Of a DNA stretch of 64,000 nucleotides, positions 5,264 through 49,718 are shown piece after piece. The position numbers and the translations under genes were made by a program. Position 1 is the first letter of the stretch. Each line of letters starts with the position of its first letter. Under the pieces are notes generated by a model that saw only the letters and a list, made by a program, of their open reading frames with translations, had not been told where the DNA came from and did no database searches. This DNA comes from Burkholderiaceae bacterium (GTDB lineage Bacteria; Pseudomonadota; Gammaproteobacteria; Burkholderiales; Burkholderiaceae_E): assembly GCA_019635275.1 (NCBI GenBank), contig JAHBZV010000003.1, forward strand, positions 118,449-182,448, given 5' to 3'.

Positions 5264-6744
5264 CGCCAGCCGCCGCCCAGCGACTTCATCAGGTCGACGC
5301 TGTAGCCGAGCCGCGCCTGGCGGTTGCGGATCAGCGCCAGCTCGGCGTCGTTCTGCGTGCGCAGCGCGTCGAGCAGCTCGAGGTAGCCCGAATAACCGGA
5401 CTCGTAGCGTGCGCGTGCGAGCCGCGTGCTGTTGCGCGCCGCGTCGAGCCGCGCCTGCAGGTCGCCTTCGGCCGCCGCGCTGCGCTCGTTGTTGGTCAGC
5501 GCGTCGCCGACTTCGCGGAAGGCCGTCTCGATCGACTTCTGGTAGCCGGCCAGCGCCTGCCGCTGCCGCGCCTCGGCCTGCTCGGCGCGCGCCTGCAAGC
5601 GTCCGGCGTCGAAGATCGGTAGCGCGAGCCCGAAGCCCAGCGACCAGATCCGCGCGCCGCTGCGCAGCAGGTCGGAGAGCTCGGCGCTCTGCCCGCCGAA
5701 CGAGCCGGTCAGCGAGATCGTCGGCAGCATCGCCGCGCGCGCGACGCCGATGCGCGCATTGGCAGCCTGCAGTGCCGCCTCGGCCTGGCGGATGTCGGGG
5801 CGACGGTCGAGCAGCGTCGACGGCAGGCCGGCCGGCGGCAACGGCGGCACCGGCATCGCGCGCAGGTCGCCCGCGGGCACGCGCAGGCCGGGTTGGCCCG
5901 TGAGCGCGCCGAGTTGTCGCTCGACCGCGGCACGCTGGCGCTGCAACTCGATCAGCTGCAGCGCCGCTTCGGCCCGCGCCGCCTCGGCCTGGTTGACGTC
6001 GAGGTCCGACACGACGCCGCCGCGCGCCCGGGCGCGCACCACTTCGAGGCTCTCGGTGCGAGTCTGCACGCTCTCGCGGGTGACCGCGATCTGGGCGTCG
6101 AGCGAGCGCAGCGCGAACCACGACTGCGCGGTCGTTCCGGCCAGGCTCAGCGCGACGACGTCGCGGGCGTAGCGGCTCGCCGCCAGCTGCGCGTCGACCG
6201 CCTCGGCGCCGCGCCGCAGCTTGCCCCACAGATCGAGTTCGAACGCGGTGGACAGCGCGATGCGCTGGTCGGATCGCGCCAGCGGCACGCTCGGCGGCAC
6301 CGGCGTCGCCCCCAGCGACGTGATCCGCGAGCGCGTGCTGGACGCGCCGAGGTCGACTTGCGGCACGAGCACCGCGTACGCCTCGCGCAGCGCCGCCTCG
6401 GCCTCCTCGACCTGCGCGATCGCGAGGCGCACGTCGGGATTGCGCGCCAGTGCAGCGTCGACCAGCGCGTCGAGCGCCGGGTCGCGATACAGCGTCCACC
6501 AGTCCACGGGCAGCGCGGCGCCGGGCGCGCCCGCCACGGCAGCGTCCGACGGCATCACGTCGACGAAGCGCTCCGGCAGCGCCTGCTCCGGGCGCCGGTA
6601 GTCGGGCCCGACCACCGTGCAGCCCGCGAGCGCGAGCGCGGCGAGGCAGGCTGCGGCAGCGCGACGCCACCGCGCCGAAGCGTCGGGCAGGCCCGTCGCG
6701 CGAGCGCCCGACGGGCGCACCGTTGCTGCAGTCGCGGCGCTCAT
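5167..6744 (-). CDS. RND efflux outer-membrane factor, lipoprotein (OprM/NodT family)
   Basis: A 525-residue TolC-like channel of a tripartite efflux pump. The signal peptide ends in the lipobox LALAGC (Cys42), followed by the family motif TVVGPDYRRP. Two OEP repeats follow, with LFDAGRLQARAEQAEAR and the periodic coiled-coil helices of the periplasmic barrel. It is the third gene of the operon; its ATG overlaps the pump gene's stop by 4 bp (ATGA), indicating translational coupling. The C-terminal ~35 residues are low-complexity Ala/Ser/Pro and overlap the convergent FemAB-like gene by 97 bp. Confidence 0.95.
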   Translation of the reverse strand: MSAATAATVRPSGARATGLPDASARWRRAAAACLAALALAGCTVVGPDYRRPEQALPERFVDVMPSDAAVAGAPGAALPVDWWTLYRDPALDALVDAALARNPDVRLAIAQVEEAEAALREAYAVLVPQVDLGASSTRSRITSLGATPVPPSVPLARSDQRIALSTAFELDLWGKLRRGAEAVDAQLAASRYARDVVALSLAGTTAQSWFALRSLDAQIAVTRESVQTRTESLEVVRARARGGVVSDLDVNQAEAARAEAALQLIELQRQRAAVERQLGALTGQPGLRVPAGDLRAMPVPPLPPAGLPSTLLDRRPDIRQAEAALQAANARIGVARAAMLPTISLTGSFGGQSAELSDLLRSGARIWSLGFGLALPIFDAGRLQARAEQAEARQRQALAGYQKSIETAFREVGDALTNNERSAAAEGDLQARLDAARNSTRLARARYESGYSGYLELLDALRTQNDAELALIRNRQARLGYSVDLMKSLGGGWRQSDAEASSPAAASAPGTASAGAVSAPAGTAR

Positions 6745-41408: not shown

Positions 41409-42144
41409 GCCGCTGCTGAGCCTGCGCGCGATCGGCTTCCGCCCGAACGGAAGGTCGGTGCTCGACTCGATCGACTTCGAATGGCGAGACGACGTGCGCA
41501 CCTGCGCGCTGATCGGCCCCAACGGCGCGGGGAAGTCGGTGATGCTGCGGACCATCCACGGCCTGCTCGAGCCCGACGCCGGCGACGTGCGCTTCGAAGG
41601 CCGCATGCCCCCCGGCAAGGGTTTCTCGTTCGAGGGACAGGCGCTGGTCTTCCAGCACCCGTCGCTCTTTCGCGGGTCGACGCTGGACAACCTGCTGCTC
41701 GTGCCCGACGGCGCCGGGCGCAGCCGGCGCGAGCGCCGCGAGCGCGCGCTGGCCATGCTCGAGCGCGTCGGCCTGCGTACGCTCGCAGCCGCGCCGGCGC
41801 TCAAGTTGTCCGGCGGCGAGCGCCAGCGACTGGCGCTCGCGCGCGCCTGGCTCACCGAGCCGCGGCTGCTGCTGCTCGACGAGCCGACCGCCAGCCTCGA
41901 CCCGTCGGCAACCGACCAGGTCGAGCAGCTGATCCGCGACATCCGCGCGAGCGGCTGCCGCGTGCTGCTGGTCTCGCACAACCTGGGCCAGGCGGCCCGC
42001 CTCGCCGACGAAATCGTGTTCATCCACCACGGCCGACTACTCGAACGGCAGCCGACCGCAGCGTTCTTCGATCACCCTCGCACCAGCGAGGCCCGCCAAT
42101 TCCTTCAGGGAGCCCTGCCATGGCAACTTTCCCACGCCGGATGA
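41398..42144 (+). CDS. tupC: Tungstate-type ABC transporter ATP-binding protein
   Basis: A 248-residue ABC ATPase energising uptake. Walker A GPNGAGKS (residues ~39-46), Q-loop in LVFQHPSLFRGS, signature LSGGERQRLALARAW, Walker B LLLLDEPTASLD, and switch His in LLVSHNLGQA. No extra C-terminal regulatory domain such as the MOP domain of ModC is present, which favours the Tup type. Overlaps tupB by 11 bp and tupA by 25 bp. Confidence 0.92.
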   Translation: MATEPLLSLRAIGFRPNGRSVLDSIDFEWRDDVRTCALIGPNGAGKSVMLRTIHGLLEPDAGDVRFEGRMPPGKGFSFEGQALVFQHPSLFRGSTLDNLLLVPDGAGRSRRERRERALAMLERVGLRTLAAAPALKLSGGERQRLALARAWLTEPRLLLLDEPTASLDPSATDQVEQLIRDIRASGCRVLLVSHNLGQAARLADEIVFIHHGRLLERQPTAAFFDHPRTSEARQFLQGALPWQLSHAG

Positions 42145-43016
42145 ATACTCGACCGAGGACCGATCCGCAAACCGGGCCGAGGAACCGTCTTCGGGCCGGC
42201 CTCGCCGCTTTCGCCGGCACGCTGCTCTTCGCTGCCGGCCTGGCCTCGACCGGCGTCGCGCAGGCGCAGACGTCGATCACCGTTGCGTCGACCACGTCGA
42301 CCGAGCAGTCGGGCCTGTTCCGCCACCTGCTGCCGGCGTTCGAGAAGAAGACCGGCATTCAGGTCCGGGTGGTCGCGGTCGGCACCGGGCAGGCGCTCGA
42401 CATCGGCCGCCGCGGCGATGCCGACGTGGTGTTCGTCCATGACGCGAAGGCCGAAGAGAAGTTCATCGCCGAAGGCGCGGGCGTCAAGCGCTTCGAGGTC
42501 ATGTACAACGACTTCGTGCTGATCGGCCCCAAGAGCGACCCGGCGAAGATCGGCGGCGGCAAGGACATCCTCGAGGCGCTGCGCAAGATCTCCGCTGCCG
42601 GCGCTCCGTTCGCGTCGCGCGCCGACCGCAGCGGCACGCATGCGGCCGAACTGCGCTACTGGGCCGCCGCCGGTGTCGACCTGGCACCGGGCAAGGGCAA
42701 GTGGTACAAGGAGACCGGCTCGGGCATGGGGCCGACGCTGAACACTGCGGCAGGCCTGAACGCCTACGTGCTCGCCGATCGCGGCACCTGGCTGTCGTTC
42801 AAGAACCGCGGCGACCTCGTCATCCTGGTCGAAGGCGACAAGCGCCTCTTCAACCAGTACGGCGTGATGCTCGTCAATCCGGCCAAGTACCCGCAGGTCA
42901 AGAAGGAAGCCGGCCAGAAGTTCATCGACTGGCTCATCTCCCCCGAGGGCCAGGCGACGATCGCGAGCTACAAGATCAACGGCGAGCAGCTGTTCTTCCC
43001 GAACGCGGCGCACTGA
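42120..43016 (+). CDS. tupA: Tungstate-type substrate-binding protein
   Basis: A 298-residue periplasmic protein. A signal peptide (LRAGLAAFAGTLLFAAGLAS, cleaved around AQAQ) precedes the oxyanion-binding start ITVASTTSTEQSG, the TupA motif with consecutive Thr/Ser ligands. Also typical are GTGQALDIGRRGDADVVFVH and SRADRSGTHAAELRYW. Selectivity for tungstate over molybdate is family knowledge, not visible. ATG at 42120 follows AGGGAG and overlaps tupC; an ATG at 42141 is possible. No molybdo- or tungstoenzyme is encoded nearby. Confidence 0.92.
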   Translation: MATFPRRMNTRPRTDPQTGPRNRLRAGLAAFAGTLLFAAGLASTGVAQAQTSITVASTTSTEQSGLFRHLLPAFEKKTGIQVRVVAVGTGQALDIGRRGDADVVFVHDAKAEEKFIAEGAGVKRFEVMYNDFVLIGPKSDPAKIGGGKDILEALRKISAAGAPFASRADRSGTHAAELRYWAAAGVDLAPGKGKWYKETGSGMGPTLNTAAGLNAYVLADRGTWLSFKNRGDLVILVEGDKRLFNQYGVMLVNPAKYPQVKKEAGQKFIDWLISPEGQATIASYKINGEQLFFPNAAH

Positions 43017-43097
43017 GCGCAGGCGCGCAGGAACCGCTGTGCGCAGGGCCTGCCGCGGGGCGGCCGCCCATGCACCCGAGCGGCTCCGGCACCGTGC

Positions 43098-43103
43098 TAT
43101 ACT
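43098..43103 (+). promoter_or_regulatory. Candidate -10 box (TATACT) for tRNA-Arg
   Basis: TATACT lies 10 bp before the 5' end of the tRNA, the expected distance. No clear -35 is visible. Confidence 0.4.
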
Positions 43104-43113
43104 GCGCGGCTTA

Positions 43114-43190
43114 GCGCCCGTAGCTCAGTTGGATAGAGTACCTGGCTACGAACCAGGGGGTCGTGGGTTCGAATCCTGCCGGGCGCGCCA
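43114..43190 (+). tRNA. tRNA-Arg(ACG)
   Basis: 77 nt with encoded CCA. The 7-bp acceptor stem pairs GCGCCCG with CGGGCGC, the D-arm includes AGCTCAGTTGGATAGAG, the anticodon stem-loop CTGGCTACGAACCAG has anticodon ACG (decoded as ICG), and the T-arm contains GGTTCGAATCC. It is the integration site of the downstream island: from the anticodon loop to past the 3' end it is identical to the attR copy, so the 3' part may be island-derived while function is kept. Confidence 0.97.
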
Positions 43191-43203
43191 GTCAGATCAA
43201 GGG
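43146..43203 (+). repeat. attL (58-bp direct repeat, tRNA side)
   Basis: Identical over 58 bp to 48990-49047, from the tRNA-Arg anticodon loop through CCA and into the 5' arm of the following hairpin. Identity starting at the anticodon loop points to crossover there rather than in the T-loop. Confidence 0.93.
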
Positions 43204-43224
43204 GTTAGCGAGAGCTGGCCCCTT
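43199..43224. terminator. Hairpin after tRNA-Arg (island copy, GAGA loop)
   Basis: An 11-bp stem (43199-43209 with 43214-43224, two G-U pairs) closed by a GAGA tetraloop, followed by GTCGTTT. It probably ends the tRNA transcript. On the minus strand it encodes the last residues and stop codon of the integrase gene. It is the counterpart of the hairpin at 49043-49068. Confidence 0.6.
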
Positions 43225-44284
43225 GTCGTTTCTGGCCCTGTGACAGATTTGTGCCATTGGCCGCCTCTATCACTTCGCCCGCCTCGTTTCCCACCACCCG
43301 CAAGGCGCACAGGCGATCCGCATAGGGCGCCAGGTGTTCCACGGACAGGTGCGCGTAGCGCCTGACCATCTCGGGACTTTCCCAGCCGCCCAACTCCTGC
43401 AGCGCATAGAGCGGCGTGCCGCCCTGCACGTGCCAGCTCGCCCAGGTGTGCCGAAGGTCGTGCCAGCGGAAGTCCTCGATCCCGGCGCGCTGCTGCGCCT
43501 GGTACCAGGCCTTCGTGCTGACCTGCCGGATCGGCCGTCCCCGAAAGCTGAACACATGGGTTGGATGCCGCCCGACCTGCTTGCGAATGAGCGTCACAGC
43601 CTCCGCATTGAGCGGCACCGCAATCGCCTTCCTCGCCTTGGCCTGGTCGGGATGAATCCAAGCCTGCCTGCGAACCAGATCCACTTGCGACCACTGCAGA
43701 CCGGTGACGTTGGCTCGCCGCAGCCCCGTGGCGAGTGAGAACGCCGCCATGTCCGCCAGATGCTCCGGCAACTCGGCCAGAAGCCGCTGGGCCTCGTCCC
43801 GATTCAGGAATCGAATCCGGCGCGTTGGCTCTCGCAACATCCGTACCCGGGGCGCCTTGTCGAGCCATTCCCATTCGTTGACGCATCGTCTGAGAATGGC
43901 CCGCAGGATCTCCAGGGTCCGATTCACCGTGGCATTACTGACCCCCTCGCGCAGTTTCGCGTCCGTGATCCGGTCGACGACTGCCCGGCTGATGAAGTCC
44001 AGATCCTTGCCGTCCAGGTACTTGTCGAGCCAGCGCAAGTGCGCCTTGTCCGACTCGATCGTTGCCTTGTGCGTGGACTCCTTCAGCCAGCGCACCACCG
44101 CATCGTTCCAGGTGTGGCGTGGGCGCTCGCCGAGCTTTGCGAGCCGCCACATCTGGGCCTTCAGCTGATCGTGATACTCCTGCGCTAGGGCCTTGTTGGC
44201 AGTCCCAGTAGAGCGGCGTACTCGCTCCCCGGTGGGAGCGACGACGTCGATCCAGTAGAGACCGCCTCGCTTGCGAAGTGACAT
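43205..44284 (-). CDS. int: Tyrosine recombinase / island integrase
   Basis: A 359-residue phage-type integrase. N-terminal arm-binding part (MSLRKRGGLYWIDVVAPTGE), SAM-like core-binding domain (~75-165), catalytic domain with Arg in ATGLRRANVTGL, HxLRH in WHDLRHTWASWH, GGWESPEMVRRY and the nucleophilic Tyr in RRYAHLSVEHL. ATG at 44284 follows a perfect AAGGAGGT; a 139-residue extension upstream is antisense to other genes. The stop lies one base beyond attL, inside the terminator stem, as expected for an integrase defining the tRNA-proximal end. Overlaps the excisionase-like gene by 100 bp. Confidence 0.95.
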   Translation of the reverse strand: MSLRKRGGLYWIDVVAPTGERVRRSTGTANKALAQEYHDQLKAQMWRLAKLGERPRHTWNDAVVRWLKESTHKATIESDKAHLRWLDKYLDGKDLDFISRAVVDRITDAKLREGVSNATVNRTLEILRAILRRCVNEWEWLDKAPRVRMLREPTRRIRFLNRDEAQRLLAELPEHLADMAAFSLATGLRRANVTGLQWSQVDLVRRQAWIHPDQAKARKAIAVPLNAEAVTLIRKQVGRHPTHVFSFRGRPIRQVSTKAWYQAQQRAGIEDFRWHDLRHTWASWHVQGGTPLYALQELGGWESPEMVRRYAHLSVEHLAPYADRLCALRVVGNEAGEVIEAANGTNLSQGQKRQGASSR

Positions 44285-44499
44285 GCAACCTCCTTGTCGA
44301 GTGTCACTTGCAGCGCTTGCCGAGGACGAGCATAGAGCGAGCGCAGATGCTCGACAAGGTCGTCCTCGAGGAACACCCAGGCGCGGCCCACCTTGGCGCC
44401 GGGTATCTGGCCGAGCTTTGCGCGGCGGCGCAGCTCCTCCGGATGGATCTTGAGGAACGCCGCCGCCTCCTGCAGGACAAGGGTTCGCATCGCATTCAT
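44185..44499 (-). CDS. Excisionase-like MerR-type helix-turn-helix protein
   Basis: A 104-residue protein with an excisionase-family helix-turn-helix: LVLQEAAAFLKIHPEELRRR, then KLGQIPGAKVGRAWVFLEDDLVEHL. Such AlpA/Xis-like proteins direct excision or activate int. ATG at 44499 overlaps the stop of the upstream gene (ATGA) behind GGGGAGG; ATG at 44490 is the alternative with better spacing. The C-terminal ~35 residues overlap the int start and are probably non-conserved. Confidence 0.8.
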   Translation of the reverse strand: MNAMRTLVLQEAAAFLKIHPEELRRRAKLGQIPGAKVGRAWVFLEDDLVEHLRSLYARPRQALQVTLDKEVACHFASEAVSTGSTSSLPPGSEYAALLGLPTRP

Positions 44500-45836
44500 G
44501 CCTCCCCGTCCCTGGCCCGGCGATAGTCCTGGGCGCCCTGTTGAACGCTTGCGCGATCCACGCCCAGCTCCCGGCGATTGTTGATGCGGCTGAACCGGGC
44601 TCCCTTGAGCCTGGCTCGCGCCTCGACGAAAGCGGTGGCGGTCGTCCCGATGGAGTCCGCGAGCTCTTCGAACTCGTCCAGGAAGGCGCTGATCCCCTCA
44701 TCTAGGTCGGTCATCCCGCGAGCCCCCATGTAGGAGGTCAGCAGGCCCAGCAGTTGCCTCGACTGGCGATCGAAGGCGCCAACACCATGCGAGCGCTGGC
44801 GCTTCAACACCAGCGGCGGCGAACCCCAATCGACGCCGGCCAACGCTGCCCAAGTAGACGCGACCGGCCAGCGCGAGCGGTTCGAATCCGCAGTCGGCAG
44901 GCGCAGCGAGAGCCAGTCCATCGCATAGGCCCAAAGCCCCGCCTGCTTCTCCAGCACGTCCAGAAGGGTCGGCGTACCCAGTTCCAGCAGCACCGGGCGA
45001 CGGAACTGGAACTCGAGGCGCCAGACCGGGTCCGCCCATTCGTAACCATTGGCCAGCCAAAGGTCGAACCAATGCGCCTTGTGGCTCTTGTCGAAGATCT
45101 CGCAGATCTTGTCGTACAACCGCGCGGAGAGATCGCCGCCCTGCCCGATCGACCATCCAGTCAGATCGCTGCGCTTGAGGTACGGCGTGATCCGCTCGGC
45201 CCGGGTCACCCACATCTCGGGCGGAAACAGCTGAAAGGGACGATCGGGCGTGAAGTCGACGCACAGATCGACCCGGCTAACGGCCTCGCGGTCCTGAATG
45301 GGGGCAAGCGACCGGACGACGTAGCGAACGTCCTCCAGAGCGTTCAAGGGTCCGACCGACGCGAGAAACTCGCTGCTGATCTGGACGCTTGCCAACGGGT
45401 AGCCCTGCCCCGATCCGACGTTGAGCGAGAAGTCGGGATGGTCGAGCGCGAACGGCACCCGCCCCCTGCCGTGGCCGAGAACCGAGAACACGCGACTACC
45501 GACCTCGAGCTGCGCCAGCGAGCGACGCGCCGGCTCCTTGTCCTGGGCGAGTTCTTTCAGATCCTTGAGGCGAGCGCGAGTTGCGGGGCCCAGCGAGCCC
45601 TTGAAACTCACGTACAGCGAGTCGATCGCAACGCGCAGGACGCGCCGCAGATCCGGCACGACAGCTGGGTATTTTTGGGGTGCTGTGTTACTGGGTGCAG
45701 CACCCGCCGCGTCCGCGCCAGCCGCTAGCGCGGCCGGCATCGGACGCAAGTCGGACGCGCTCCGATCCAGAGCGCTTGCGGAAATATCGTCGTCGAGAAA
45801 AGACCGAGCGTCGCTCGGTGCAGAGCTTGGGCACAT
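44496..45836 (-). CDS. Probable replication-initiation/MobT-like protein (Rep_trans type)
   Basis: A 446-residue protein resembling Rep_trans/RstA-type initiators of filamentous phages and integrative elements. Recognisable features: LRVAIDSLYVSFKG at the domain start (~70), the acidic motif SRVDLCVDFTPDRPF (~190), DLSARLYDKICEIFDKS and PVWRLEFQFRRPVLLELG. The first ~60 residues are Ala/Ser-rich and probably disordered. In this family the protein nicks DNA for rolling-circle replication or mobilisation (MobT relaxase). ATG at 45836 follows GAGGTTTG. The assignment rests on motif memory, so other roles are possible. First gene of rep-xis-int. Confidence 0.6.
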   Translation of the reverse strand: MCPSSAPSDARSFLDDDISASALDRSASDLRPMPAALAAGADAAGAAPSNTAPQKYPAVVPDLRRVLRVAIDSLYVSFKGSLGPATRARLKDLKELAQDKEPARRSLAQLEVGSRVFSVLGHGRGRVPFALDHPDFSLNVGSGQGYPLASVQISSEFLASVGPLNALEDVRYVVRSLAPIQDREAVSRVDLCVDFTPDRPFQLFPPEMWVTRAERITPYLKRSDLTGWSIGQGGDLSARLYDKICEIFDKSHKAHWFDLWLANGYEWADPVWRLEFQFRRPVLLELGTPTLLDVLEKQAGLWAYAMDWLSLRLPTADSNRSRWPVASTWAALAGVDWGSPPLVLKRQRSHGVGAFDRQSRQLLGLLTSYMGARGMTDLDEGISAFLDEFEELADSIGTTATAFVEARARLKGARFSRINNRRELGVDRASVQQGAQDYRRARDGEA

Positions 45837-46263
45837 GACCAAACCTCATGGCAATAGTTGCGATGAAGTCCGAAGCAGTCATGCGCCCTGTGCGTCCCAA
45901 TGAATGGCAGGCCTAAAGCCTGTTTTCGCTACCCCACCTGGGCATGAGCTAGATGGGCTACTTCCCGGGGGGATTGCCGGGCGATCAGATGTATTTTGTC
46001 TCTGCTTAAGACCCCCCTAAGATACCGTCTATCTGAGAACCAGGTCAACAACGACAGTAGGTCGGCAAGCCCGCAAGACGGCAATCCAAAACTATCAGTC
46101 GCCAATGCTCCCACGCCTTCGCCTTGCTCCAGATGGCCAAGAGCCTCGCTTTCGCGGCGCGGTCGAACAACTTGCGGTTGGGTGACGCGGCGCCCTCACA
46201 CGCGTCGACATACGGCAAACCCCCAAGTACTCCTAGAATCCACGGTATCTCAAGAGGCCAAGC
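45837..46263. other. Gene-free divergent control region of the island
   Basis: 427 bp without a convincing gene, separating the leftward rep-xis-int genes from the rightward ATPase gene. It contains a CAGGC/GCCTG hairpin followed by TTTT (45908-45926) and TAGAAT at 46234-46239, a possible -10 for the ATPase gene. A replication origin or oriT would be expected here, but no iterons or nick site could be recognised. Confidence 0.5.
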
Positions 46264-47529
46264 ATGCCCATTAGCGCCCTTCATATAGAAAATTTCAAGG
46301 GAATCGCGGACCCGGAGAGGATCCCCATTCGTCCGATCACTCTCTTCATTGGCCCAAATTCCTCTGGAAAAAGCAGCTGCATTCATGGGCTTGCAGCTCT
46401 CGCGCAAACGGTCAAGCTATCCGCACCGACTCGCGCCTTGGTTCTTGATGACCAATACGCTCAGGTTCACCTGGGCCGTTTCATTGAGGTCATCCACTCT
46501 AGAACATATAAGGACGCCATTCGCCTCGGCGTGGAGATCCCAGGGGTTCGCATCATGACCCTAAGGGCCAAGAACGCTGCGGCAGCGCCACCGGTCACAG
46601 TAGCCGCCGACTACGCTTTCAAGAGCACGCGCCGGACCCAGGAGCTATACCTTGAAAATGCCCTTATGACGGCTGGCACTCGAAGCATCGAGGTCAAGAG
46701 GACAAAGGAGGGTCACTATCGAACAATCGACAGCGCACACGCCCAAGAATTTAAGGCAAGGCGCGCAAACGGATTCCTGTGCACTATCAGTTTTGACTCC
46801 GCCTCTCGCTTCAAGGAAGAGTTTCTCGGTACGTGGTCGTCACTCGAAGCCATCCAATTAGAGGTCGCCAAGTCACTGAGTAAGACGCTCTACATGGGGC
46901 CGTTCCGACAACCGCCCCAACGGCCGTATCCCACCATGGGAGCCGCGCCGTCCGAAGTAGGGGCAATGGGAGAACATGCTGTCGCAATGCTCGCGAACGA
47001 GTACATTCAGAGCCACTCCCGCCCTCATCTTGAGCAGGTTAGCAGTTGGCTGAACCGTTTGGGCGTTTCCAAGAAGATAGAACTGCAGCGCGTTGGACGC
47101 TCGGATCAGTTCTATGTGAACATGACCCTGCGAGACGGCAGCTCGTTGCCGATCGCCGACCTCGGCTACGGCGTTTCACAGGTTCTGCCGGTCCTAGTCC
47201 AATGCAGTATTGCCCCTGCGGGTTCAACGCTCCTATTCGAGCAGCCTGAACTCCATCTGCACCATGGCGCAGCCAAGAAGTTGGGGCGCGTATTCCAAGA
47301 AGCGGTGAACGCAAAGGACATACACATCGTCGCCGAGACGCATTCCAAGGAGTTGTTTCACCAAGTGTTCGAGGAGATCAGAGGGGGGAGATTGTCGACT
47401 GATCAGGTCGCGGCATACGAGGTACGGCGGCAGGGCGGAAAGAGCGTTTTCGTTCCGATCGGAATCGAACTCGAGGACGGCCATCTTGAAGTGTCGCACC
47501 CGTGGGGAAGCGGCCTAGATGCAAACTGA
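46264..47529 (+). CDS. AAA family (OLD/DUF3696-like) ATPase, island cargo
   Basis: A 421-residue ABC-type ATPase. It begins ISALHIENFKGIADPERIPI, then Walker A FIGPNSSGKSS (~residues 28-38), signature region LGYGVSQVLPVL, Walker B LLFEQPELHLHHGAA and the His switch IVAETHSKEL. The layout matches stand-alone AAA_21/DUF3696 ATPases found in phage-defence loci (Septu, retron-associated and OLD-like). No nuclease (TOPRIM or HNH) domain or partner gene is visible, so the effector is unknown. Codon use and GC are clearly lower than in the backbone. AGAGG lies 8 bp before the ATG. Confidence 0.85.
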   Translation: MPISALHIENFKGIADPERIPIRPITLFIGPNSSGKSSCIHGLAALAQTVKLSAPTRALVLDDQYAQVHLGRFIEVIHSRTYKDAIRLGVEIPGVRIMTLRAKNAAAAPPVTVAADYAFKSTRRTQELYLENALMTAGTRSIEVKRTKEGHYRTIDSAHAQEFKARRANGFLCTISFDSASRFKEEFLGTWSSLEAIQLEVAKSLSKTLYMGPFRQPPQRPYPTMGAAPSEVGAMGEHAVAMLANEYIQSHSRPHLEQVSSWLNRLGVSKKIELQRVGRSDQFYVNMTLRDGSSLPIADLGYGVSQVLPVLVQCSIAPAGSTLLFEQPELHLHHGAAKKLGRVFQEAVNAKDIHIVAETHSKELFHQVFEEIRGGRLSTDQVAAYEVRRQGGKSVFVPIGIELEDGHLEVSHPWGSGLDAN

Positions 47530-47590
47530 GATCGGTCATTGGCTTCGTTGGTTGTGACACAGACGTGCGTTGAACAGACTGGGAACGGAT

Positions 47591-47608
47591 TTGGCAAGCA
47601 CTGCAAGT
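47591..47608 (+). repeat. 18-bp island-end repeat, internal copy
   Basis: TTGGCAAGCACTGCAAGT is repeated exactly at 48935-48952. In both places it precedes a tRNA-3'-like att sequence, as an element end would. Confidence 0.7.
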
Positions 47609-47680
47609 AATTGTTTGACAAAGATGTTTTAGGCATTCAGCGCCCCTTAACCAGTCCTACAATGGGACTCCGGTGCCCAT

Positions 47681-47733
47681 CAACCCAGGGAGCAGTGGGT
47701 ACAAACCCTGCCGGCCGCGCCGTCAAAATCAAG
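47681..47733 (+). repeat. Degenerate internal att site (tRNA-Arg 3' remnant)
   Basis: About 53 bp aligning to the 58-bp att repeat from the anticodon-stem 3' side through the acceptor and beyond, with roughly ten mismatches and two one-base indels; blocks such as CCTGCCGG and CGCGCC are preserved. It cannot form a functional tRNA. Best read as a decayed attR of an earlier integration. Confidence 0.7.
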
Positions 47734-47835
47734 TACTTTGGCCAGTTTCTCGAAACTGACCTTTCGCTTCTAGAGCCTTCGCGTCCGGCGCACGTCCGAA
47801 GAAGGTCACCTCCCGTCTGATAGCCTTGCCAGACA

Positions 47836-48273
47836 ATGGAGCCGGACGCGATCTATCTTCTTCAGCGCTTGCGCCTATCGGCCGAGTTAAATGCAGTCGA
47901 AGTAGGAAAGCTGATCCCCCGTTACTTCGGGGATCATCGCGACTTCTTTACGCTCGCGCGTTTGCTCGAAGGTGGCTACGTAGCCCGAAGTGCTACGCCC
48001 GAGAAGGTCCCACACCCATTTCGCGGCGTCGATGTTCGCGCCATCCTTCTGTACATGGACGCGCACGAATTGACTGAGTACCGCGGGGTCACAGCCAACC
48101 GGCACTCGGGGAAGGACGACAATCCGTTGTTCCTCACAGCTGCCGGCATGCTCGCGCTTGAGCAGTTTGAAACAAAGCGCGCGGATCGCCTCTGGTCGAC
48201 AGGAATCGCGGTAGCCGCGGCCATCCTTTCCGCGGTCGCGACGGCCTTCGCTGTGAACGTCTTGTTCCGCTAG
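47836..48273 (+). CDS. Hypothetical protein, cytoplasmic domain plus C-terminal membrane helix
   Basis: A 145-residue protein I cannot assign. Residues ~1-115 are soluble, with a winged-helix-like pattern (DFFTLARLLEGGYVAR and PLFLTAAGMLALEQFETKR); residues ~119-143 (IAVAAAILSAVATAFAVNVL) form a tail-anchor-like helix. It is followed after 6 bp by a second small membrane-protein gene, and the pair forms a tight two-gene cassette at the island's right end. GC is lower than the backbone. No strong ribosome-binding site is seen. Confidence 0.7.
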   Translation: MEPDAIYLLQRLRLSAELNAVEVGKLIPRYFGDHRDFFTLARLLEGGYVARSATPEKVPHPFRGVDVRAILLYMDAHELTEYRGVTANRHSGKDDNPLFLTAAGMLALEQFETKRADRLWSTGIAVAAAILSAVATAFAVNVLFR

Positions 48274-48279
48274 CACTCG

Positions 48280-48774
48280 ATGAACGCCTCAGAACTTGCG
48301 GCATGGATTGGCGCGACGACGGGAACGCTCGCCCTCGCTTGGGACGTAATCAAGTGGACGCGCAGCGGTGCGCGGATCTTCGTCAAGGCGCAAGCGGGAA
48401 TGGGAATGGTCATACCAGGCGAGAACATCGAGAAGAATCAGTCGTTCGTCACGGTGACTGCTGTCAACAGAGGCGACCGTCCCGCAACGATTACGCACGT
48501 CGTCGGGCAGTTCTATCGGTCGCCTGTTCATCGCCTGTTGCGTAGACGCCCCTCGCATCAGTTCCTGGCATTCTGTTCGCGCTTCGCCGGTCAGACTCCA
48601 CACATCCTTCCTCCGGGTGAGCGATGGATCGGCTGTTTCGAACAATCGAGCGACATCGAAGACATGATCCGCCGCGGTTGCCTGTACTGGGGCATCGTTC
48701 ACTCAGGATCCGCGAAGCCTGTTCTCAGTCGCCTGACCCTCCCTCCTCCAGAAACCGACGCGCCCAACGCATAG
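48280..48774 (+). CDS. Hypothetical island protein with N-terminal membrane segment
   Basis: A 164-residue protein. It starts with a short hydrophobic helix (ELAAWIGATTGTLALAWDVI) followed by KWTRSGARIFVKAQAGM and a beta-rich domain with VTVTAVNRGDRPATITHVVG and LPPGERWIGCFEQSSD. This pattern resembles a common but uncharacterised family of genomic-island proteins. The probable topology is one helix with a beta-sandwich domain. It is translated 6 bp after the preceding gene, so the two probably act together. Confidence 0.7.
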   Translation: MNASELAAWIGATTGTLALAWDVIKWTRSGARIFVKAQAGMGMVIPGENIEKNQSFVTVTAVNRGDRPATITHVVGQFYRSPVHRLLRRRPSHQFLAFCSRFAGQTPHILPPGERWIGCFEQSSDIEDMIRRGCLYWGIVHSGSAKPVLSRLTLPPPETDAPNA

Positions 48775-48929
48775 GCCAAACATTGATCGTCGGCGGCCCG
48801 ACGACCTGGCCCGGAACCCTCGAACCGTCCGTTCCGGGAAAACTGGAGCGATGCGCAAACGTCGGGAGCCGCGAACGTGCCTCCAGCCAGGTTGGGTGTG
48901 ACCGAATTGTGCCTTGAACTGCTTGGTAG

Positions 48930-48952
48930 AGTGCTTGGCAAGCACTGCAAGT
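48930..48952 (+). repeat. Island-end inverted repeat and 18-bp repeat copy
   Basis: AGTGCTT (48930-48936), GGC loop, AAGCACT (48940-48946) form a perfect 7-bp inverted repeat. The part at 48935-48952 is the second exact copy of the 18-bp sequence at 47591. A candidate integrase or excisionase arm-binding site. Confidence 0.55.
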
Positions 48953-48989
48953 CGTTGATATATAAAGCTATAAAGATTGCGCGCTGCGC

Positions 48990-49047
48990 CTACGAACCAG
49001 GGGGTCGTGGGTTCGAATCCTGCCGGGCGCGCCAGTCAGATCAAGGG
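48990..49047 (+). repeat. attR (58-bp direct repeat, distal end)
   Basis: Exact copy of 43146-43203: the 3' part of tRNA-Arg from the anticodon loop, without the 5' half, so no functional tRNA is formed here. It marks the distal boundary of the island. Confidence 0.93.
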
Positions 49048-49068
49048 CTTACCTTCGGGTAGGCCCTT
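49043..49068 (+). terminator. Hairpin after attR (chromosomal copy, TTCG loop)
   Basis: An 11-bp stem (49043-49053 with 49058-49068, one G-U pair) with a TTCG tetraloop, followed by GTCGCTT. It is presumably the original terminator of tRNA-Arg before integration, now separated from the gene by the island. Confidence 0.6.
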
Positions 49069-49103
49069 GTCGCTTGTGGCCGGGCCACGCAGCGCCGCTT
49101 CGA

Positions 49104-49718
49104 CTATCGTCGGCGACGCGACGCCGCCAGGCCTGCGAGGCCGATGCCGAGCAACGCGATCGCGCCAGGCTCGGGCGCGGCACCCGTGGGCGTGCCGCAG
49201 ACATTGCTGGTTCCAGGCCCGCAAGCCTGCAGGAACCCCCTGATCTCACCGCCGGGATAGACGGTGGTGTGGATGTTCAGATAGGCCCACCCTGCCGCGA
49301 GGCCGGCCGCCAGCGCCGCTTCGGCTCCCGCGGGCGCTCCGCCATGCGCCGTGACGAACGCGGGATTCCAGCTCGAAGCGTGCGTCAGGTCGAACAGCGG
49401 GCTGACGTAGGTGCCCGACGTGACGCCCAACGGGAACCCGATGAAGGACGGCACCTGCGTCGCGACCGTGGTGGTGCCGGGCGGCGCGATGCAGCAATGG
49501 ATATGGGCCGCCGTGGTCGGGCCGAGCAGTCCGGAGAACGTCACGTCGAGCCGAAGCGTGTGGGCGAGATCGTCGTACGTGGCCAGCGCATATCCGACGC
49601 CCGGCGACGAGACGCCACTCAGGTCGGCGTCATAGGTGATCACGGTCGCGTGCGCGGGTGCCGGGTTCGCCATCGCGAACAGGCCAGCCGCCGCCAAAGT
49701 GGCCAGTCTTCCGATCAT
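49104..49718 (-). CDS. CHRD-domain PEP-CTERM protein
   Basis: A 204-residue exported protein. Signal peptide (MIGRLATLAAAGLFAMANPA), a CHRD domain (TAAHIHCCIAPPGTTT; AYLNIHTTVYPGGEIRGFLQ), and a C-terminal PEP-CTERM tail (PEPGAIALLGIGLAGLAASR then Arg). Such tails are processed by exosortase and target proteins to the envelope or exopolysaccharide; no exosortase gene is in the window. ATG at 49718 follows GGAGAGG; the much longer open frame upstream belongs to no gene. A sigma-54-type promoter lies ~52 bp upstream. Confidence 0.9.
   Translation of the reverse strand: MIGRLATLAAAGLFAMANPAPAHATVITYDADLSGVSSPGVGYALATYDDLAHTLRLDVTFSGLLGPTTAAHIHCCIAPPGTTTVATQVPSFIGFPLGVTSGTYVSPLFDLTHASSWNPAFVTAHGGAPAGAEAALAAGLAAGWAYLNIHTTVYPGGEIRGFLQACGPGTSNVCGTPTGAAPEPGAIALLGIGLAGLAASRRRR

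Follow-up and report, generated by a model that had tools for sequence, protein, structure and literature searches.

The island at the tRNA-Arg(ACG) gene of this Burkholderiaceae bacterium raises the question of whether it arrived as a single element or was put together from two. It measures ~5.8 kb between tRNA-Arg(ACG) and attR, within a window of 64,000 nucleotides (the whole stretch of DNA analysed here), and holds a decayed att site. The best explanation is that the island is probably a composite, which would have arisen by site-specific accretion of an autonomous element and an integrase-less module, followed by decay of the junction between the two. The original prediction of two accreted modules separated by a decayed att site is supported by three features of the internal site: a right arm of the element family, a tRNA-Arg 3' end and a flank of the type found in congeners. 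Both the window and its closest relative, locus L074 (JAKOVB010000022.1), are from draft genomes of uncultured bacteria. Other loci used for comparison are also given by L numbers.

Island frame and genes

The outer boundaries and the genes of the island are as follows.

43114 to 43190, + strand: tRNA-Arg(ACG), the integration target (ARAGORN)
43146 to 43203, + strand: attL core, starting at the anticodon loop, same 58 bp as the attR core
43205 to 44284, - strand: tyrosine integrase, 359 aa (PF00589, E 3.5e-31)
44185 to 44499, - strand: Xis/AlpA-like HTH protein, 104 aa (PF12728, E 9e-10; PHROG excisionase)
44496 to 45842, - strand: replication initiator-like protein (Rep), 448 aa, predicted fold like Rep_trans rolling-circle initiators
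46264 to 47529, + strand: AAA ATPase, 421 aa, defence-like cargo of module 1 (PF13175; PADLOC models NsnB, HEC-03B and PDC-M55A)
47836 to 48273, + strand: orf145, cargo of module 2, without a family match
48280 to 48774, + strand: orf164, cargo of module 2, with a remnant directly after tRNA-Arg in the congener L241
48892 to 48998, + strand: right arm of the whole island (arm model E 1e-20)
48990 to 49047, + strand: attR core, same 58 bp as the attL core

The predicted perfect 58-bp attL/attR pair was found to be identical at 58/58 positions (43146-43203 vs 48990-49047), and as a looser repeat it extends to 92 nt at 88% identity. The GC content is 65% from int to rep, 56% in the ATPase, 59.5% in module 2 and 70% in the flanks. 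The tRNA terminator in attL (43200-43237) resembles the left flank of L074, and that in attR (49044-49080) resembles the native flanks of L242 and L244; the island element appears to bring its own tRNA terminator. ARAGORN also called an odd tRNA with a two-base anticodon at 42025-42119 (-), which overlaps an ABC transporter coding sequence and is probably spurious.

Module 1 encodes its own integration and excision set, with integrase and Xis-like genes and att sites. Reaching from 43.2 to 47.64 kb, it would be an autonomous integrative element with the integrase by attL, the AlpA-like excisionase, Rep, the ATPase and a right arm. The ATPase (46264-47529) matched the PADLOC model NsnB at E 6e-46 and also HEC-03B and PDC-M55A, and no partner gene was recognised beside it with the PADLOC models. 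Module 2 (47.69-49.05 kb) holds orf145 and orf164 only, without an integrase or transfer genes of its own, and is probably an integrase-less remnant in which the two small genes stand between a left end that has decayed and a right arm of its own. Neither orf145 nor orf164 matched Pfam, PHROG or PADLOC at E 0.1, and the one NCBIfam match of orf164 was below the cut-off. In the sample of 300 genomes, orf145 was found in the window's own genome and not elsewhere. Two orf164 homologues exist outside the genus, neither of them near a right arm.

Small cargo pieces between copies of a recombination site are also the form taken by integron cassettes. The island shares with them the small pieces separated by recombination-site copies, but its att cores have a double-stranded arm by a tRNA end, and 57 of 64 loci of the arm family (see below) have one arm only. 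The integrase scored 33.5 bits against the NCBIfam integron-integrase model (cut-off 265 bits), and judged by this sequence comparison the island is not an integron cassette array.

Internal att site

Between the ATPase gene and orf145 lie a second right arm and a second core.

47548 to 47644, + strand: internal right arm, end of module 1 (arm model E 2.2e-14; nhmmer profile E 2.5e-12)
47685 to 47733, + strand: decayed internal att core, tRNA-Arg 3' end plus flank (alignment and shuffles)

The 18-mer TTGGCAAGCACTGCAAGT occurs exactly at 47591-47608 and at 48935-48952, as had been claimed, and a third copy, beyond the original prediction, lies inverted at 44306-44323 with 2 mismatches. Allowing up to 3 mismatches, there are 3 matches in the window vs 0.02 expected. 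The 18-mer sits within a longer repeat (47547-47623 and 48891-48967, 71% identity), and no further copy of its first 17 bases was found with up to 2 mismatches in the organism's own genome (3.69 Mb, 162 contigs, 86.8% complete). The internal arm scored 66, the maximum of 2000 dinucleotide shuffles being 37. It shares 70% identity with the island's own attR arm, and 63-74% with the ten other arms compared, except for 51% with L141.

A degenerate copy of the tRNA-Arg 3' end had been placed at 47681-47733. Such a copy is present, with a later start than proposed, as the supported core begins at 47685. Its alignment with the 58-mer (47685-47733, 50 columns) has 40 identities, 8 mismatches and 2 gap columns. 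It scored 54, while 2000 dinucleotide shuffles reached no more than 32, and outside the att copies the best remaining match to the 58-mer in the whole window scored 36. The spacing from arm to core is ~32 nt longer than in attR. The region with the extra nucleotides (47609-47684) contains a 5-bp stem, AGTCC/GGACT.

It is extremely improbable that the internal copy represents a degenerate tRNA pseudogene or matches by chance. Such an origin would be in keeping with the unremarkable single-strand fold (z -0.81) and with the lack of a tRNA call by ARAGORN, but no 5' tRNA half was detectable at the site (292 and 731 of 2000 shuffles as good), a full right arm lies directly upstream, and the comparison with chance that had been proposed for the copy placed it above all 2000 shuffles. 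A full decayed tRNA (GCGCCC start) and two nested cores were also tried at this position and rejected, the 5' part being no better than shuffles. Rfam gave 3 matches in 47400-49200, all far under the gathering scores and none to a tRNA family.

Right flank of the internal site

The sequence past the internal core contains two further features, listed here with the left arm of the island.

47740 to 47761, + strand: decayed tRNA terminator hairpin of the type of L241, L243, L247 and L248
47782 to 47798, + strand: candidate left arm of module 2, CGTCCG twice at an 11-bp period
43239 to 43255, + strand: left arm of the island, near-repeat TGTGAC/TGTGCC at an 11-bp period

The stretch 47722-47836 was compared with the post-tRNA-Arg stretch of 12 congener loci, and also with both att flanks (attL and attR) of the window, of L074 and of L013. 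It scored 54 against L243 and 46 against L241, with 0/1000 shuffles as good in both cases, 34 against L246 (1/1000) and 29 against L245 (15/1000). All other flanks were at chance level, including the island's own attL flank (950/1000 shuffles as good) and attR flank (776/1000). In addition, BLAST matched 47685-47764 to L247 at 78% and to L248 at 76%. The flank common to the internal site and the congeners is a terminator hairpin with changed pairs between the copies. A duplication of the island's own right end, with later decay of the inner copy, would explain why arm and core stand in the same order at both places, but the inner arm is no nearer to the attR arm than are the arms of other genomes. 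Moreover, since the internal flank is like the tRNA-Arg flanks of congeners and unlike those of the island's own attL and attR, a local duplication is very improbable. Judged by its sequence, the internal site joins an old attR to the attL of another element.

Left ends beside an integrase of the window type have a 6-bp repeat at an 11-bp period, 44-73 nt past the tRNA. A pair with this period and 5 or 6 of 6 matches was present in 14/16 int-adjacent left ends vs 1.5 expected, other periods from 8 to 14 were each present in 1-3/16, and the 11-bp pair was absent from all six flanks without a visible element end. L142 was left out of this count, its tRNA lying 7.5 kb from int. An exact CGTCCG/CGTCCG pair as at the internal site was obtained in 25/5000 shuffles, for an interval chosen after the data had been seen.

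Right-arm family and tandem arms

A pattern made of the core of the 18-mer followed by a tRNA T-arm at 43-73 nt was searched in 84,980 species genomes and gave 74 matches in 73 stretches. The gap from arm to T-arm was 57 or 58 in 61/74 matches, out of 31 possible values, and the pattern had no match in viral contigs. Matches with gaps of 56-60 (9/74 were left out) provided 65 arms from 64 loci for the arm profile. The arm model was built from 46 non-redundant arms of other genomes without the window sequence; it includes the second arms of multi-arm loci, and is independent of the window and not of those loci. In the alignment of the 46 arms, the 5' part of the consensus is TGTGCC-N5-TGTGCC, then ~23 nt, GGCAAGCRNNGCAAG and TGATTGATT. 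After TGATTGATT come ~28 nt and then at least 7 different anticodon-loop sequences, and one arm type thus serves many tRNAs. In the order-wide sample, the arm occurred in 28/300 genomes (45 matches, some near the threshold), and in the taxonomic family of the host in 4/74 genomes.

The inverted copy of the arm sequence within the island is also recognised by the model.

44304 to 44328, - strand: inverted arm-type site in the 3' part of xis, just upstream of the int start (arm model E 3.9e-4)

By profile, this site was found in 7/9 loci with an Xis match (the window, L074, L048, L133, L134, L141 and, weakly at E 0.084, L142) and not in L131 and L138. Going by its sequence, it may have a role in autoregulation by Int or Xis, or its conservation may simply be that of a coding sequence.

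Of the 64 pattern-selected loci, which were viewed over up to 8 kb and had been chosen for at least 1 intact site, 57 carry a single arm, and two or more arms are present in the other 7. An integrase of the window type starts less than 300 bp downstream of an arm, i.e., as a second complete element, in 6/64 loci. Among the 28 arm-bearing genomes of the order-wide sample, arms stand in tandem within 10 kb in two, the window and G065 (L193). The damaged core is on the inside in L047, L074, L077 and the window and on the outside in L052 and L060, and both cores are intact in L078 and L105. A PemK/MazF-like toxin gene (L078 442-882, +; PF02452, E 3e-24) lies between the two intact att sites of L078, which are ~1 kb apart, and the only further ORF of 80 aa or more in the piece continues into the second arm. 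The two tandem arms of L077 (2296-3878) are followed by cores like those of different tRNAs, first with a TTGTAAA and then with a TGAAAATC loop, and an element of one tRNA specificity would thus lie within the boundary of another.

Relatives at tRNA-Arg

Parts of the island also occur separately in relatives. L018 has tRNA-Arg without a second core and without an arm; the sequence ahead of its right flank is ~0.8 kb longer than in the window, and this site is apparently empty of the island. L191 has 3.6 kb between the tRNA and an att core and ends in the right arm and core; it is without a window-type integrase and tblastn gave no match to window proteins. Its last gene before the arm is similar to the HNH protein of the last L074 module (72% over 110 aa). 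In L241, a remnant of orf164, spread over two frames and with 74% DNA identity over 131 columns, lies no more than ~120 bp from the end of the tRNA, and no arm was found at this tRNA-Arg locus. L013 (= L083), from another genus of the family, has a 1.7-kb element at tRNA-Arg with the same arm. This att-bounded remnant (L013 4385-6146) holds a truncated integrase 3' end and one gene, the product of which we take to end like a PEP-CTERM protein. Only L191 among the 12 congener tRNA-Arg loci fetched has the family arm, from which it follows that other integrases also use the tRNA-Arg site.

A search for partial islands at tRNA-Arg(ACG) had been proposed as a check. Its outcome was partly positive, with the orf164 remnant of L241 and the arm module of L191, and no partial island was seen to end at 47.7 kb. 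None of the genomes searched contained the proposed unit of rep-xis-int plus ATPase with a boundary of its own at that position, and the ten loci fetched for their ATPase homologues (L148-L157) have no arm and no other island gene.

L074 matches window positions 42678-46013 (int-xis-rep) at 93% and 48840-49080 at 90%, and between 46013 and 48840 the two have nothing similar except arm sequence. L074 has three right arms in tandem, at 5320, 6033 and 6782 in the orientation used. An intact T-arm follows the last arm only, and the other two arms have damaged cores. The core after the first of them is marginal (2/2000 shuffles) and that after the second consists of CTACGAACCAGG only. The cargo comprises a different AAA ATPase, in the position of 46264-47529 of the window, with a 145-aa protein, then a 169-aa protein and then an HNH protein. 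The outermost arm is 95% identical to that of the window, and the cargo preceding it is different. Because the outer arm and int-xis-rep are shared, the frame is common to the two islands and the middle has been exchanged. On sequence evidence, the comparison supports modularity and shows pieces that are not strictly tied to their arms.

These data bear on a cassette-like exchange, in which integrase-less pieces with a right arm would be added or swapped at a resident attR by its integrase. Integrase-less pieces do lie between tandem arms in L074, L078, L105 and L047, an HNH piece is common to L074 and L191, and CTACGAACCAGG is preserved in both internal arms of L074, which diverge after it. 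However, the flank of the window's internal site is that of a left end, with a tRNA terminator and a candidate left arm, and this is what an element that was once complete should leave behind. Nor do the borders of the cargo exchanged between L074 and the window coincide with an arm, and no free circle was seen. An exchange of this kind is hence an improbable origin for the window's island, with the accretion of two elements remaining the preferred account.

Rep and nature of the element

Rep homologues occur in 12/300 genomes of the order. In the Rep loci fetched, an integrase homologue is present in 13/13, an Xis homologue in 6/13, a tRNA directly beside int in 10/13 and the family arm in view in 5/13. 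The Rep sequence gave no useful match in the PDB (a weak line to 4cij, E 0.76), and 11 Rep homologues gave no match to Pfam Rep_trans, the best E being 0.026 for an unrelated model. The AlphaFold model of Rep (5 sequences, mean pLDDT 67) has a low-confidence N-terminus and tail. Foldseek placed 4cij, 4cwe and 4cwc first (E 1.3e-9 to 3.9e-7, TM 0.47-0.52 on target length), and the only six matches at E <=0.001 are all rolling-circle initiators. The predicted fold is like that of the Rep_trans/MobT initiators (4cij, 4cwe, 4cwc), but Rep is longer and without a Pfam match, and it is described here as having a Rep_trans-like fold only, with no assignment to the Rep_trans family. R241, Y243, K245 and E248 are invariant in the 11 homologues and presumably form a putative nicking motif. 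On the model, we infer that the excised circle may replicate by rolling circle and perhaps transfer with Rep as relaxase.

The size of ~5.8 kb and the combination of integrase, AlpA-like and replication genes with a defence-like ATPase could also suggest a phage satellite, for example of a filamentous phage with a similar initiator, and the accretion would then have taken place among satellites. Rep homologues are found in three IMG/VR contigs, with the integrase adjacent in L252 and L253, the two of these contigs for which neighbouring ORFs on the integrase side were listed. This is nevertheless unlikely, as no packaging or coat gene was recognised among the six island ORFs scanned and no Rep homologue among 50,697 phage records. 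A distant Rep homologue is instead the one large gene of a 1.7-kb plasmid, the 1,724-bp pTHEBA.01 of Mesotoga prima, which was the only plasmid match.

Order of assembly

The original prediction also made the inner junction the older one and the outer junction the younger; this age order was not established. Since an incoming element normally uses the intact tRNA, the integrase-bearing half probably came second and the inner cargo half first. Most likely, module 2 was at the tRNA when module 1 integrated there beside it, and this event would have produced the hybrid internal site. The site would then have decayed to its present state, with a core of ~80% of the tRNA sequence and ~32 nt extra between arm and core. 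Because of this decay, the integrase is now probably restricted to the outer pair, and would move both modules as one. Assembly of the composite in place would make the internal core the same age as attL. The internal core is at ~80% and the outer attR is perfect, for which the simplest account would be that the joint decayed earlier and the whole was then integrated afresh. Alternatively, the perfect attR may be due to gene conversion instead of a later move of the whole composite.

Comparison with known systems

The accretion of att-bounded modules is already known, as far as the available portions of two accounts go (PMC5704250; PMC3146451). In IME-CIME accretion in Streptococcus, as given in part of PMC5704250, an element decays to a cis-mobilizable element (CIME), and an incoming integrative and mobilizable element (IME) then integrates at the site containing the gene end. 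The island resembles this system in its tandem elements at the 3' end of one gene, in the decayed, integrase-less state of one element with att sites, and in that such composites may move together (PMC5704250, in part). By the features of a CIME, module 2 has an intact attR and a left site that is recognisable but decayed. The two systems differ, within the same part of PMC5704250, in that the internal site is here itself decayed and the relaxase or mobilization part is putative; the examples given there are mostly from Firmicutes, whereas the element family of the window is in Proteobacteria. The ssrA islands of Dehalococcoides are also tandem and bounded by direct repeats of one RNA gene, and 15 of them, without an integration module, have been suggested to be cis-mobilizable (available text of PMC3146451). 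As described there, they have a serine recombinase and a tmRNA target, whereas the present family has a tyrosine integrase, a tRNA target and a conserved right arm.

In the open-access literature, to which the search was confined with subscription papers outside its scope, no paper was recognised as describing the element family of the window, which seems to be common and little described. Tentatively, and with more doubt than confidence, it may be regarded as a widespread family of Proteobacteria that combines an integrase, an AlpA-like factor, a Rep_trans-fold initiator and a modular right arm. The arm would then support a shared pool of integrase-less cargo at tRNA hot spots, which is added, exchanged and locked in by decay of the inner core. 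Whether decay of an inner att site fixes composites is now testable, as is the question of whether such elements of Proteobacteria replicate or transfer by means of a Rep_trans-fold initiator. In less than 6 kb, the island preserves a complete record of how a composite forms, as the left and right ends of both parts are present together with the dead joint. The conserved right arm provides a gene-free search handle, and finds integrase-less pieces that gene-based island finders would miss.
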